The position numbers and the translations under genes were made by a program. Positions 3,841-48,441 of a stretch of 64,000 nt of DNA are shown here, piece after piece. Position 1 is the stretch's first letter. The number at the start of each line of letters is the position of its first letter. The notes beneath the pieces were generated by a model. It searched no databases. It was not told where the DNA came from and saw only the letters and a program-made list of their open reading frames with translations. Source of the stretch: Phycisphaerales bacterium (GTDB taxonomy: Bacteria > Planctomycetota > Phycisphaerae > Phycisphaerales > UBA1924); NCBI GenBank assembly GCA_040221175.1, contig JAVJVK010000013.1, positions 124,001-188,000 of the forward strand. Direction: 5' to 3'.

Positions 3841-3966
3841 CAAAAACTCCGGAATCGCCCGCGTGTTCGGGGGATGAACGGAAGATCCCGCCAGAATCGC
3901 CGCCAATCACGCCAGAACCGCAGCGATTCCGGCGGGCAACGCCCGATCGCTGGGGGGAAAATCGAA
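3841..3966. repeat. Degenerate 21-bp tandem repeats
   Basis: Read in 21-bp steps, the units at 3883-3903 and 3904-3924 agree at about 16 of 21 positions (shared core CGCCAGAA-CGC-GC), and those at 3841-3861 and 3925-3945 agree with them at about 11-12. The unit at 3862-3882 agrees poorly. The same period recurs in two other non-coding regions of the window. Confidence 0.5.
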
Positions 3967-4011
3967 AAATTCCTCCAGCGGCGCGGGATTGCTCGCCAGG
4001 GGCGGCGCATC

Positions 4012-4042
4012 GCCCGCCGGACATGTCGGGTGTCCGGCGGGC
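4012..4042. repeat. Perfect 12-bp inverted repeat, hairpin
   Basis: The arm GCCCGCCGGACA at 4012-4023 is the exact reverse complement of 4031-4042, with a 7-nt loop. A further partial copy GCCGGCGGGC follows at 4045-4054. There is no T-run on either side, so a classic intrinsic terminator is unlikely. It could be an operator or an RNA hairpin. Confidence 0.6.
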
Positions 4043-8701: not shown

Positions 8702-11581
<2,880 letters not shown>

Positions 11582-11650
11582 ACGTCACTCCATGCGCCCG
11601 ACCCCGATCCACACAAAGGAGGGGCCACCGGGGCGCGCTGCGCCAAACAC

Positions 11651-34848: not shown

Positions 34849-38037
<3,189 letters not shown>

Positions 38038-38670
38038 GGCGGGTCCCCTCCGAGTGCGTGCGTGCGGGCGGCACTCGGACCCGCACGACGCCGCACCGGC
38101 TCTGGGACCCCCGCGATGGAATCGAGACTACGAAGTCAAATACGCGGGCGTCAAGGCCGCGTTACGCGAAGATTCGCCGAAGAATGCCGCAAAAACGCTC
38201 CCGCCGCCGCACGCCACCACGGCGGTGCAAGGCCCGAGAACCCCGGTGACGGTCCTCCGCGCTGCCCTGCCCGTCCTTGCGTCACCGCCACCCGTCTCTC
38301 CGTGAGCGTTGACGGTCCTTCCGTTCACGCCACCCGTCCTTCCGTCACCGCTGACCGTCCTTCCGTCACCGCTGACGGTCCTTCCGTCACGGCCACCCGG
38401 GCTTCCGTCACCGCCGCCCGAAGGACCGTCTCCGCCACCGGGGGCCCCATCGCCGCCGCGCGAGGCCCCTTCGGAGCGCCTGGATAACCGAGCGGCGCGG
38501 CCAGGGCCGCTCGCACGGCCGCCGGGGGCCGATCCGGACGGGGCGGGCCTCGTGGCGGCCCGGCGGATGGGGCCGGCCGAACTTCCCCTTGCGGCCCGGC
38601 CCCGTTCCTGGTATATTGGACGCCGGGCGGCCGACGGGCGGCCCGTGTGTTCGTGGAGGAGACGCCGACC
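38038..38670. other. Non-coding 633-bp region with a 21-bp repeat array
   Basis: It lies between the divergent starts of two dockerin-protein genes (38037 minus, 38671 plus). The centre holds an array of 21-bp direct repeats. Frames through it give only Pro/Arg/Gly-rich heptad repeats and overlap real genes at both ends, so no gene is called. A Shine-Dalgarno GGAGGAG for the rightward gene sits at the right edge. Confidence 0.6.
38231..38461. repeat. Array of about eleven degenerate 21-bp direct repeats
   Basis: Units step exactly 21 bp: 38273, 38294, 38315, 38336, 38357, 38378, 38399 and onward. The best copies (38336-38356 and 38357-38377) are identical over 20 bp and begin GTCCTTCCGTCACCGCTGA. 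Outer copies decay to about half identity. There are no spacers, so it is not CRISPR. Confidence 0.85.
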
Positions 38671-39735
38671 ATGCCCAGCCGCCCGCCGCCCCCCTTCGTG
38701 GCCTCGATGGCCGCGTGCCTGATCGCGTCCGCCCTGGCCGCTGCGCCCGCGTTCGGCCAGATCGCCCTTGGGGCACACGACGGCGACGCGTTCTGCGGCA
38801 CGCGGCTCACCGAGGCGACCGGCCGGCGGCACGCCGAGCGCGAGCGGGCCGGGGTGCTCGCGGCGGCGCTCGAGGCCTTCCCGCCGCGCACCGATGCGCC
38901 GCTGCGCGTGCGCGTCGTCTTCCACATCGTGCGCGCCAGCGACCGCACGGGCGGGGTCGATCCCGCGCTGCTGCCCGCCGAACTCCAGGCGATGAACGAC
39001 GCGTTCGCGCCCGCGGGCTTCGGCTTCGTGCAGGAGGGGCCCGTGCGCTTCATCGACGACGATCAGTTCTACGAGTTTCCGAGCCTGGACGACCTCAACC
39101 TGATGCGCAGCCGCTTCAACGAGCCCGGCGCGGTGAACGTGTTCTACGTGCCCGAGATCCTGCTGCTGTGCGGCTTTGCGAGCTTCTCGGGCGACGCGAT
39201 CCAGGGCATCGTGATCAAGGCCGCGTGCATGGGCGGACCGACCACGCCCCACGAGGTGGGCCACTACTTCGACCTGTACCACACGCACGAGACGTTCTTC
39301 GGGGCCGAGTGCCCCGATGGGAGCAACTGCGCCACCGCGGGCGACCTCGTGTGCGACACGCCGGCGGACCCGGACCTGCGCGGCGTCGTCGGGCGCGACT
39401 GCATCTACACGGGCACGGCCTCGCGCTGCCGGCAGTTCTTCGCGCCCGACACGCGCAACGTGATGAGCTATTCCGATCTCGATTGCCTCGAAACCTGGAC
39501 CCCCCAGCAGCACCAGCGCGCGCTGTCCGTCCTGCTGGCCGAACGCGCCGACCACATCGTCAGCGAATGCGAAGCCGACCTGGACGGCGACGGCGTGCTC
39601 ACGATCTTTGATTTCCTCGCGTTCCAGAACCTCTTCGACATGGGCGATCCGGCGGCGGACTTCGACGGCGACGGCAGCCTGACGATCTTCGACTTCCTCG
39701 CGTTCCAGAACGCGTTCGACGCGGGGTGCCCGTAG
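38671..39735 (+). CDS. Secreted M43-like (pappalysin) metalloprotease with dockerin
   Basis: Extracellular zinc endopeptidase. The 354 residues comprise a signal peptide (ACLIASALAAAPAFGQ), a metzincin-type catalytic domain with TPHEVGHYFDLYHTHE (HExxHxxxxxH, about 193-203) and the Met-turn RNVMSYSD (about 263). Cysteine-rich loops (CPDGSNCATAGDLVCDTP) are typical of the M43/pappalysin family. The C-terminal 50 residues are the paired dockerin-like module (LTIFDFLAFQNLFDMGD and LTIFDFLAFQNAFDAGCP). The ATG at 38671 follows GGAGGAG by 10 nt; an upstream GTG at 38647 would place that ribosome site inside the gene. Confidence 0.92.
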   Translation: MPSRPPPPFVASMAACLIASALAAAPAFGQIALGAHDGDAFCGTRLTEATGRRHAERERAGVLAAALEAFPPRTDAPLRVRVVFHIVRASDRTGGVDPALLPAELQAMNDAFAPAGFGFVQEGPVRFIDDDQFYEFPSLDDLNLMRSRFNEPGAVNVFYVPEILLLCGFASFSGDAIQGIVIKAACMGGPTTPHEVGHYFDLYHTHETFFGAECPDGSNCATAGDLVCDTPADPDLRGVVGRDCIYTGTASRCRQFFAPDTRNVMSYSDLDCLETWTPQQHQRALSVLLAERADHIVSECEADLDGDGVLTIFDFLAFQNLFDMGDPAADFDGDGSLTIFDFLAFQNAFDAGCP

Positions 39736-39906: not shown

Positions 39907-41283
39907 ATGGATAGACCGATCACCGCCCGCGCGATGGCCGCCGCCGTCGCCATCACGTGCTCGGCCGCGCCCCTCGCGTGCGCCCAGAGCGTCACCATCA
40001 CGAAAGTCATCGGCGAGGAGGACACGCTGCCCAACGGCTACCGCTACGGCGGCGGCGGGCTGGCGGGGATGGACGGCGACCGCATCGCCTTCTACGTGGG
40101 CACGATGGACGGCGACGACGCCGTGTGCGTGCGCAACGTCGTGACCGGCGACACGATCGTCCTGGCCGACACCGACGCGACCGTGAGCCCGACGTATGGC
40201 GAGGTCTTCAAGAGCCTGACCAACCCGACCATCCGCGGCGACGAAGTGGTCTTCCCCGGCGCAGCCCAGTTCTTCACCAACGAGTGGGAGGGCCTGTACC
40301 TCGCCGATGCGGGTGGCGCGGGCGAGGTCAGCGTGATCATCGACGAGTTCTTCCCCGGCGTGCGCATCCCGCGATTGCCCGCGCAGAACGACGCGGGCGT
40401 GGCGTATCGCGACGCGGGATACGCGGGCGAGCCGCTGTTCTTCACGACTCTGGGCGGGGCGATCACGCCCATCGCCACGCGCAGCATCGCCGCGCCCGGC
40501 GGTGGCACGTACTTCGACGTGGAGCCGCCCAGCGCGGGCGGGAACCTGGTCGCCTTCTGGGGCATCGCGACCGGCTCGGACATCGGCGCGCTCTGGGGCG
40601 CGTGGGTGTGGGATGCGTCGACCGAACAAACCACGCTGCTCGCCCAGGAGGGCCAGCCCATGGTGGGCGCGCCCGCGGGCGTGGCGTTCGACATCGTGGC
40701 GGCCATCGATACCGACGGAGAGCGCGTGCTGGTGGGCGGCTCAAGCGGCAGCCTGCCACGCGACTTCTACTCGGCCCTGTACCTGTGGGGCGGCTCGAGC
40801 ACGCTCCAGGAAGTCGTCAAGCGCGGCGACACGATGCCCAGCGGCGAGACGTTCGGCTTCGTCAGCGGCATCGCCGTCGACGGCGACACGGTGCTCTTCC
40901 GCGGCGAGACGCACGCGGGCGACGTCGTCGCGCTGTACGTGTGGATCGACGGCGAGATCATCGAGATCCTGCGTGCCGGCCAGGCCCTGCCCGATGGCAA
41001 GGAGGTCTACAACTTCAACCTCCGCCCGCGCGCCCTCTCGGGCGATCGGGTCGTGATGAACGTGGGGCTGAGTCGCCTGGGCGAGGACGGGATCTACTTG
41101 GCGGAGATCAATCGTTGCCGGCCGGACCTCGATGGCGACGGCGTGCTGACGATCTTCGACTTCCTGGCCTTCCAGAACCTCTTCGACGCGGGCGACCCCA
41201 CCGCCGACTTCGATGGTGATGGCGAGCTGACGATCTTCGACTTCCTGGCGTTCCAGAACGCGTTCGACGCGGGGTGCCGGTAG
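39907..41283 (+). CDS. Secreted beta-propeller-like protein with dockerin
   Basis: The family is not recognised with confidence. The 458 residues comprise a signal peptide (AMAAAVAITCSAAPLACAQ) and about 380 residues of repeating beta motifs of the type GDxxPxG...xxxxxxxGDxVxFxG: GEEDTLPNGYRYGGGGLAG, GDRIAFYVG, RGDEVVFPG, KRGDTMPSGETFGFVSGIAV, DGDTVLFRGE and RAGQALPDGKEVYNFNL. This is consistent with a propeller that reads like planctomycete autotransport-style repeat proteins. It ends in the paired dockerin-like module and FDAGCR. The start ATG 39907 has only a weak AGAAAG. A longer frame from 39790 adds non-signal sequence. Confidence 0.85.
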   Translation: MDRPITARAMAAAVAITCSAAPLACAQSVTITKVIGEEDTLPNGYRYGGGGLAGMDGDRIAFYVGTMDGDDAVCVRNVVTGDTIVLADTDATVSPTYGEVFKSLTNPTIRGDEVVFPGAAQFFTNEWEGLYLADAGGAGEVSVIIDEFFPGVRIPRLPAQNDAGVAYRDAGYAGEPLFFTTLGGAITPIATRSIAAPGGGTYFDVEPPSAGGNLVAFWGIATGSDIGALWGAWVWDASTEQTTLLAQEGQPMVGAPAGVAFDIVAAIDTDGERVLVGGSSGSLPRDFYSALYLWGGSSTLQEVVKRGDTMPSGETFGFVSGIAVDGDTVLFRGETHAGDVVALYVWIDGEIIEILRAGQALPDGKEVYNFNLRPRALSGDRVVMNVGLSRLGEDGIYLAEINRCRPDLDGDGVLTIFDFLAFQNLFDAGDPTADFDGDGELTIFDFLAFQNAFDAGCR

Positions 41284-47324: not shown

Positions 47325-47810
47325 GTGGTGCGGCCGGACGGTCGCGGGTGTGATGAGCAATCTTCGCACTCGAGGAAAGTCCGAGCACGGCAGGGCAACG
47401 GTGGTGGGTAACGCCCACCCGTCGGAACTCGTGGCTCTCTTGAGAGTCAGGTCGCGAGCCGGCGAGGGACAGTGCCACAGAAAACACACCGCCGATGGCG
47501 TTCGCTTGCGAGCGCACAGGTAAGGTTGAAATGGTGCGGTAAGAGCGCACCGCCCGGCTGGCGACAGACGGGGCACGGCAAACCCCACCGCGTGCAAGGT
47601 CACGCAGCCGTCGCGATGGTCGAGCAATCGGCCATCGACGCCCGGCCCGGGCGGCAGGCGGCGGGTAGACCGCTGGGGCCCGGCATTGCCGGATTCATGC
47701 CCCGATCACGCCGGCAACGGCGTGGCCAGAGAAATGGCCGTCATCTGTTCCGGAGGGCCGTTCGCGCCGGGGCAGAGACAGAACTCGGCTTACAGGCCGC
47801 ACGCGACCAC
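47325..47810 (+). ncRNA. rnpB: RNase P RNA, bacterial type A
   Basis: Catalytic RNA that trims tRNA 5' leaders. P1 is formed by GTGGTGCGGCC at 47325 and GGCCGCACGCGACCAC at the 3' end. The universal core GAGGAAAGTCCGAGC is at 47372. GGTAAGGTTGAAATGGTGCG with GGTAAGAGCGCACCG (P10-P12 region) and the 3' core AGAGACAGAACTCGGCTTAC near 47774 are present. Length about 486 nt is a little above average for type A. A -10 TATAGT lies upstream and a strong hairpin follows. Exact ends are estimated from P1 pairing. Confidence 0.95.
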
Positions 47811-48231: not shown

Positions 48232-48441
48232 TCTCCACCGCCACGCCCATCCCCACGGACCGCCCGCCCACCCCGCCCGGGCGAACGCCCTCCCGAACGG
48301 GCCGCTCGCCCCGCCCAACGGGACGCGTGCCCCGTTGAACGGGGCACGCGGTTCGCACCGCGGGGCACGCGTCCCGCGGCCCCTGGCGTTCGCCCGGGCC
48401 GGGTTGGCGAGGGGAAACCAGCGCGGGACACGTGGTCCGGC
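48232..48441. repeat. Array of about ten degenerate 21-bp direct repeats
   Basis: Units step 21 bp from 48232 (48253, 48274, 48295, 48316, 48337, 48358, 48379, 48400, 48421). For example 48358-48378 and 48421-48441 agree at about 14 of 21 positions, and 48253-48273 and 48295-48315 at about 15. The shared core is GGGCACGCG or GGGCCGCTCG, followed by CCC. It is more decayed than the array at 38231. Confidence 0.6.

Follow-up and report, generated by a model that had tools for sequence, protein, structure and literature searches.

What kind of element is a run of direct repeats that steps by 21 bp, two turns of B-DNA, in a non-coding gap between two genes transcribed away from each other? The repeats lie in a stretch of 64,000 nucleotides from a Phycisphaerales genome (the window), and we analysed them together with further parts of the same genome (G000) and with genomes of relatives. 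The reading that we consider best, with a probability of about one half, is that proteins bind this array and others like it at sites spaced two helical turns from each other, and that selection acts on the phase of these sites.

The array in the window

Autocorrelation over positions 38231-38461 gave identities of 0.64, 0.66 and 0.66 at lags 21, 42 and 63, the next best lag reaching 0.41. TRF reported a period of 21 with 7.2 copies (38269-38420, score 148) and also a period of 63 (38270-38420, score 209). Profile extension delimited eight units (38273-38440), to which one extra decayed unit, in phase, can be added on the left. The earlier note on this DNA had described about eleven repeats at an exact 21-bp step; the step is indeed strict, but only eight to nine units are good, and the count of eleven includes decayed outer copies (Table 1).

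Table 1. Coordinates of the arrays in the window and of associated features
Feature	Position	Strand	Remarks
21-bp-period array (target)	38251..38440	no strand	nine in-phase units, the best ones GTCCTTCCGTCACCGCTGACC-like; decayed edges to 38231 and 38461
Left neighbour of target, 1062-aa FG-GAP-repeat protein	34849..38037	-	gene start faces array
Right neighbour of target, weak Peptidase M43 match	38647..39735	+	gene start faces array
CCGAGAA boundary motif	38234..38240	+	32 bp left of profile-called target array
Second 21-bp array	48244..48390	no strand	different unit, CGCCCCGCCCAACGGGGCGCG; palindromic overall
Third, weak 21-bp array	3847..4014	no strand	z 6.8; upstream of family-X gene
Family-X gene, about 220 aa	3078..3749	-	downstream of weak third array; model of a paralogue has a long helix and an Fn3-like domain

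A divergent gene pair flanks the gap, as the note had said. It had called both dockerin genes; each shares with other loci a stretch of about 55-76 amino acids that appears dockerin-like by eye, but Pfam gives no dockerin name. An 81-bp tandem repeat (88% match) was also seen at 41125-41273, within the gene at 39907-41283; it encodes what looks by eye like an EF-hand/dockerin-like motif.

All nine exact matches to GACGGAAGGACSG in the genome (3.44 Mb, 20 contigs) fall within the target or within a second array at G000:C19:462785-463056, which was found by DNA search and is the only other array in this genome with the target unit. A search allowing one mismatch gave 21 sites, compared with 26 for a backward control; the information therefore lies in the exact matches alone. 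When the C19 array was used as query, three of 60 relatives matched, all of the same genus. The C19 copy sits inside a tandem cluster (about 8.5-12 kb, within G000:C19:453500-473000, stretch L031) of paralogues of about 195-216 aa, at least one of which presumably carries a PEP-CTERM-like end, judging the motif by eye.

A fixed period in the genome and the genus

Intergenic gaps of at least 90 bp were scored for periods of 8-49 or 8-59 bp, with one 126-bp periodicity score per gap, in 864 kb of the genome (25%, 295 gaps). Genes were called with a codon-usage script, which missed at least one real gene (L137:4095-4751). Dinucleotide-resampled gaps of the same genome served as the null and reached best z values of 6.6, 7.9 and 6.7 in three runs. 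The cut for strong arrays, z > 7.5, was chosen after the data had been seen; all 28 own-genome arrays counted have a z of at least 8.0. The first sample (464 kb, the window and 20 stretches of contig C4) contained 13 strong arrays in 160 gaps, ten with period 21 and one each with 42, 8 and 27. In the second (400 kb, 20 stretches from four other contigs) there were 15 in 135 gaps, twelve with period 21, two with 12 and one with 27. Altogether, 23 of the 28 strong arrays have a period of 21 (22 arrays) or 42 (one), and extrapolation from the 25% sample gives about 90 arrays per genome. The window had been picked for its arrays; without it the rate is about equal, at 21 arrays per 800 kb. Within the sampled quarter, lag 21 dominates the strong intergenic tandem arrays, contrary to the absence elsewhere that had been named as counting against the note's interpretation.

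Two other gaps of the window had been said to share the period with different units. For 48232-48441 this is borne out by a lag-21 identity of 0.53 and a best period of 21 with z 12.5; in addition, the gap forms an extended but imperfect palindrome (fold z -4.8). An RNase P RNA of class A (Rfam) was located at 47326-47808 on the + strand, about 440 bp upstream of this array. The gap at 3841-3966 is marginal (lag-21 identity 0.46, z 6.8) and would not pass alone against the resampled nulls, but lags 21, 42 and 63 rank as its top three. The units of the three arrays do differ from one another, but the unit of the target does recur, on C19.

The class was found in six of the seven genomes of the genus, the relatives having been sampled less fully than G000. 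In 200 kb each, two of three strong arrays in G005 and three of four in G004 had a 21-bp period; further stretches, some of them chosen near known matches, gave two of two in G004, one of two in G003, one of two in G006 and three of three in G001, and one additional 21-bp array was found in G006 (L200). The seventh genome, G002, had no 21-bp array among 67 gaps (200 kb; Fisher test against G000, p 0.011); it is the member of the genus with the lowest identity (70%) to a 520-aa query protein. A strong intergenic array with a period of 14 bp (z 18.7) was observed in G002 at L262:7484. Stretches of 19 genomes from other genera of the family (468 kb, some contigs down to 0.8 kb) yielded no 21-bp array in 173 gaps. 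Their ten strong arrays had ten different periods, none of them 21, against 23 of 28 with 21 or 42 in G000 (Fisher, 6e-6). The sole strong array in one genome of another family had a period of 8.

Head-to-tail copies of a 10-100-bp unit place the arrays among minisatellites or tandem repeats in the general sense, but their period does not vary from locus to locus as that of minisatellites does. Bacterial minisatellites and satellites are head-to-tail repeats of various lengths, some of them non-coding and often with unique units (Subirana and Messeguer 2019, PMC6749651). The arrays described here resemble them in being repeated head to tail, in being non-coding as some satellites are and in often having unique units, whereas the part of that survey consulted names no species with one fixed period across unrelated units.

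Units, cores and orthologous loci

Unit statistics were calculated for 39 delineated arrays (26 from G000 and 13 from relatives) with 350 units in total. This set includes three arrays that scored under z 7.5 or were recognized by eye (window 3847, L139:11164 and L200:11783), five from sequence search (L031, L060, L061, L062 and L063) and six homologous copies, which were left out of the analyses of 33 arrays. Arrays found later stand outside these statistics (L031:15177, L060:4030, L147, L224, two in L255, L272 and L273). One of them, at L031:15177-15345 in a convergent gap, is a strong 21-bp array with a TCCCGGGA core and a clear A/B alternation of 42 bp.

Only nine of 741 unit pairs from the 39 arrays matched at 17 or more of 21 positions, and 3000 shuffled pairs reached a maximum of 15. 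Eight of the nine are orthologues or belong to the same unit family; the exception is L139:11164 and L158:16020 (17/21). The statement that the period and not the sequence is shared is thereby strongly supported, and, as described below, it extends to orthologous loci in sister species. The units are not wholly independent between arrays, since matches of at least 15/21 occurred in 20 of 741 pairs compared with six of 3000 shuffled ones. REP/BIME elements are likewise built of palindromic units, but no genome-wide palindrome consensus of their kind is discernible, given the nine matching pairs among 741. At L139, two 21-bp arrays with different units (11164-11310 and 11462-11629) lie about 150 bp apart in one gap, with ATTCTCGG to the left of each.

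Three unit families occur twice within G000 (the window and C19 arrays, L139:11462 and L217:3970, and L220:4789 and L217:18673), and in the second and third of these pairs the similarity continues for about 115-150 bp beyond the array. Such pairs are what a mobile or selfish satellite would leave if array and flank copied themselves between gaps. The heptamer CCGAGAA would fit as its boundary: it occurs in 10 of 66 array flanks in the toward-array orientation (0.72 expected), and 13 of the 33 intergenic copies outside arrays lie within 150 bp of one (binomial p 6e-9). Genes beside arrays also have paralogues more often than genes at other long gaps (56% of 52 compared with 23% of 165, p 5e-6), an excess due in part to the gene family X described below. 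However, most arrays have no unit in common with any other sampled array, and CCGAGAA stands beside some arrays and not others, in either orientation. As a genome-wide mark the motif was discarded, its longer form GGYCCGAGAAC being no more frequent in G000 than a control (26 sites and 28). In line with the earlier note, a Pfam scan of 36 proteins, which covered 32 of the 50 direct neighbours of own-genome arrays, detected no transposase. We therefore consider a selfish satellite improbable.

The mean identity at lag 21 was 0.65 in the 33 arrays, with lags 20 and 22 at the baseline of 0.29, and the single PWM match outside arrays was in phase. Sub-periods of 7 or 10-11 bp are not general. Neighbouring units differ at about one third of their bases. 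When the 28 arrays remaining after exclusion of those with fewer than seven units were examined, units at even distance were somewhat more alike than those at odd distance in 19 (Wilcoxon p 0.025).

Comparison of orthologous loci shows how the arrays change. Synteny identifies an array at G005:C2:1523951 as the orthologue of the window array; the C19 array has orthologues in both G005 and G003. In the cleanest pair, C19 and G005, the sole gap within the array measures 42 bp, and seven gaps, each of 1-5 bp, interrupt the alignment of the adjacent flank. Between the window and G005_C2 the extra length in the array consists of gaps of 1, 4, 16 and 21 bp, which sum to 42; the alignment is ambiguous there, and we read the difference as two units. 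The G003 orthologue of C19 has diverged units and ragged gaps (10 and 11 bp among others), which speak neither for nor against such a rule. At locus A the units of G000 and G005 are alike (19/21), and that of G006 is weakly so (13/21, p 0.03). Locus B is similar, with G000 and G005 alike (20/21), G003 weakly so (13/21, p 0.02) and G001 unrelated. At locus C the units of G000 and G005 are indistinguishable from chance resemblance (p 0.18), G001 has a weak array with an unrelated unit, and no array was detected in G003 (z21 4.3). Locus D, beside aspS, carries arrays with unrelated units in G000 and G004, as does locus E, where the flanks are 46-48% alike and possibly paralogous. The p values for the unrelated units (B and C in G001, D and E in G004) were 0.95-0.98. 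Since arrays recur at corresponding gaps with units that may or may not be related, place and period can outlast the sequence of the unit at several orthologous gaps.

These observations could be explained by a mutational ruler, i.e. a clade-specific amplification (by repair, by replication or through a recombinase that works on DNA in helical phase), which adds copies of 21 or 42 bp at certain gaps and serves no selected function. It would account at once for unrelated units and a fixed period, for the return of arrays with other units at the same gaps and for their restriction, so far, to one clade; the greater likeness of units at even distance and the 42-bp difference in the cleanest pair look as if the step were 42. 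On the other hand, two-copy 21-bp duplications outside arrays, the expected young products, show no excess (one in coding sequence, one in gaps), which makes a copying ruler of general action less credible but does not weigh against one restricted to array loci. Neighbouring units have diverged considerably, yet no phase slips were seen, and the conserved cores and dyads described next are unexpected for neutral copies. We regard this explanation as rather unlikely, though the most serious of the rivals.

Column conservation was overdispersed in 25 of 39 arrays, and conserved columns were clustered in nine. Dyad symmetry exceeded that of permuted columns (p < 0.05) in 15 of the 39 arrays, with a combined p of 1.5e-12 that includes the six homologous copies; both this test and the one for overdispersion assume independent units, although duplication relates the units to one another. 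Examples of dyad cores, recognized by eye, are ATGTCTGATCAGACAT (L198), CTCGCGCGAG (L215) and the core at L031:15177. G+C content is higher in conserved than in variable columns (0.81 compared with 0.63), and biased mutation may add to the pattern. By eye, a conserved core and a variable part share the 21 bp and there are no separate spacers, as the note had observed. CRISPR arrays likewise have a regular repeat step, but the absence of separate spacers sets the present arrays apart, as does that of cas genes, which the note had also remarked on and none of which turned up when 32 of the 50 own-array neighbours were scanned with Pfam.

Dyads of this kind might act in RNA, the arrays being transcribed as rows of small hairpins that serve as attenuators, terminators or small RNAs. 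The dyad cores would suit this, as would the number of arrays with a fold z under -2 (18 of 39 on one strand, 21 of 39 on the other) and the convergent orientation of four of 25 array gaps. Changes within the dyads gave no sign of compensation, however: in arrays with a symmetry score of at least 1 there were 185 one-sided changes, eight two-sided complementary and eight two-sided non-complementary ones. No Rfam match was obtained at the window arrays, and the target itself has fold z values of only -1.9 and -1.8. An RNA function thus appears quite unlikely.

Twenty-one base pairs also equal seven codons, and heptad repeats of small proteins were first favoured on the basis of a composite peptide search, which matched arrays in open frames throughout the genus. 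In the target a + frame (...ATRPSVTADRPSVTADGPSVTATRASVTA...) is open, as it is in the five related arrays translated alongside. Open frames are, however, common in units of such composition, and the units are replaced at orthologous loci. The codon-usage caller, which did miss at least one real gene elsewhere, places no gene on any of the 26 own arrays. The idea was dropped after a test for codon-phased variation, which reached p < 0.05 in only one of 39 arrays; a conserved heptad-repeat protein, which the note had named as the other finding that would speak against its interpretation, is therefore very improbable.

Surroundings of the arrays and their possible role

The 25 own array gaps comprise ten divergent (-+), six ++, five -- and four convergent (+-) ones, compared with 41 -+, 28 --, 16 ++ and nine +- among 94 other long gaps. 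Gene orientation at arrays thus resembles that at other long gaps, convergent ones included, which argues against a simple promoter-operator role. The neighbours are diverse, among them AspRS, SmpB, malate dehydrogenase and an amidohydrolase, so that no regulon is visible. Signal peptides, scored with a crude predictor, were not enriched beside arrays (13 of 50 flanks compared with 31 of 188, p 0.15).

Family X comprises proteins of about 220 aa for which an AF2 model shows a long helix and an Fn3-like domain; ten members scanned had no Pfam match, and NCBIfam and PHROG matches were weak or scattered. Matches number 45 in G000, 49 in G001, 24 in G003, 41 in G004, 21 in G005, 36 in G006 and two in G002, and in other genera 25 in G016, 16 in G035, 13 in G020 and 12 in G029; 20 kb of G016 contained no 21-bp array. 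Eight of 12 own-genome matches have a lag-21 z of at least 6.8 upstream (six of 12 above 7.5), a partly circular figure, the HMM having been seeded with eight array-flanking genes; in an unseeded blastp cluster, eight of 11 members flank arrays. Family X was considered as the array-binding protein and rejected, as the model shows no DNA-binding fold.

The arrays are best explained as a clade-specific class of non-coding intergenic elements with about 5-14 units each at exactly 21 bp. The strict phase, the conserved and dyad-prone cores and the absence of slipped units suggest selection on helical spacing and hence a bound protein. Each conserved core would be recognized by a DNA-binding protein acting as a dimer; with one such site per two turns, the copies of the protein would lie on one face of the DNA and could cooperate. 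Selection would keep the helical phase. Slippage or unequal exchange, always by whole units, would homogenise an array and let a new unit take over. As the arrays occupy gaps of every gene orientation, an architectural role (nucleoid, boundary or topology) is more probable than the regulation of a single promoter. The earlier note had proposed that a nucleoid protein or regulator binds cooperatively to the same side of the DNA. This idea gains only indirect support, from the strict phase, the dyad cores and the lack of indels out of step with 21 bp; a version based on intrinsic curvature failed, the roll signal at 10.5 bp reaching p < 0.05 in only two of 33 arrays. Several further findings count against protein binding as we propose it. 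The cores differ between arrays, so that many specificities or a shape-based readout would be needed; 24 of 39 arrays, the target included (p 0.48), have no significant dyad; and the array at locus C was undetected in G003.

Phased repeats are familiar from other systems. Plasmid iterons consist of directly repeated, helically phased units of about 18-22 bp that are bound cooperatively, with one sequence per replicon and a position beside the rep gene. The arrays resemble them in repeating units of about 20 bp head to tail and in phase with the helix, but they number about 90 by extrapolation, their units are mostly unrelated, and the Pfam scan of 32 of the 50 own-array neighbours brought up no Rep initiator gene. 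The direct repeats of BldC, the ParR/parC system and the omega heptads are also phased for cooperative dimers, with one core sequence per protein; here the cores differ and the gaps are of all orientations. Among titles and abstract openings in the open-access literature, none was found that describes fixed-period arrays unrelated in sequence.

The combination of a fixed 21-bp step with mostly differing array sequences suggests that what persists is the spacing and not the sequence. More tentatively, the arrays might form a genome-wide, orientation-independent code for chromosome organisation, in which spacing and location are inherited and selected, the sequence is replaceable and a putative protein senses phase or shape; we consider this possible but doubtful. 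Repeat families are normally defined by their sequence, whereas the arrays described here have in common a length of DNA, equal to two turns of the B-form helix, with the sequence turning over. To our knowledge, neither of the two mechanisms to which this leads has been described in bacterial chromosome biology: the recognition of helical phase by a protein that largely disregards sequence, or the copying of DNA in steps of 21 or 42 bp at chosen gaps.
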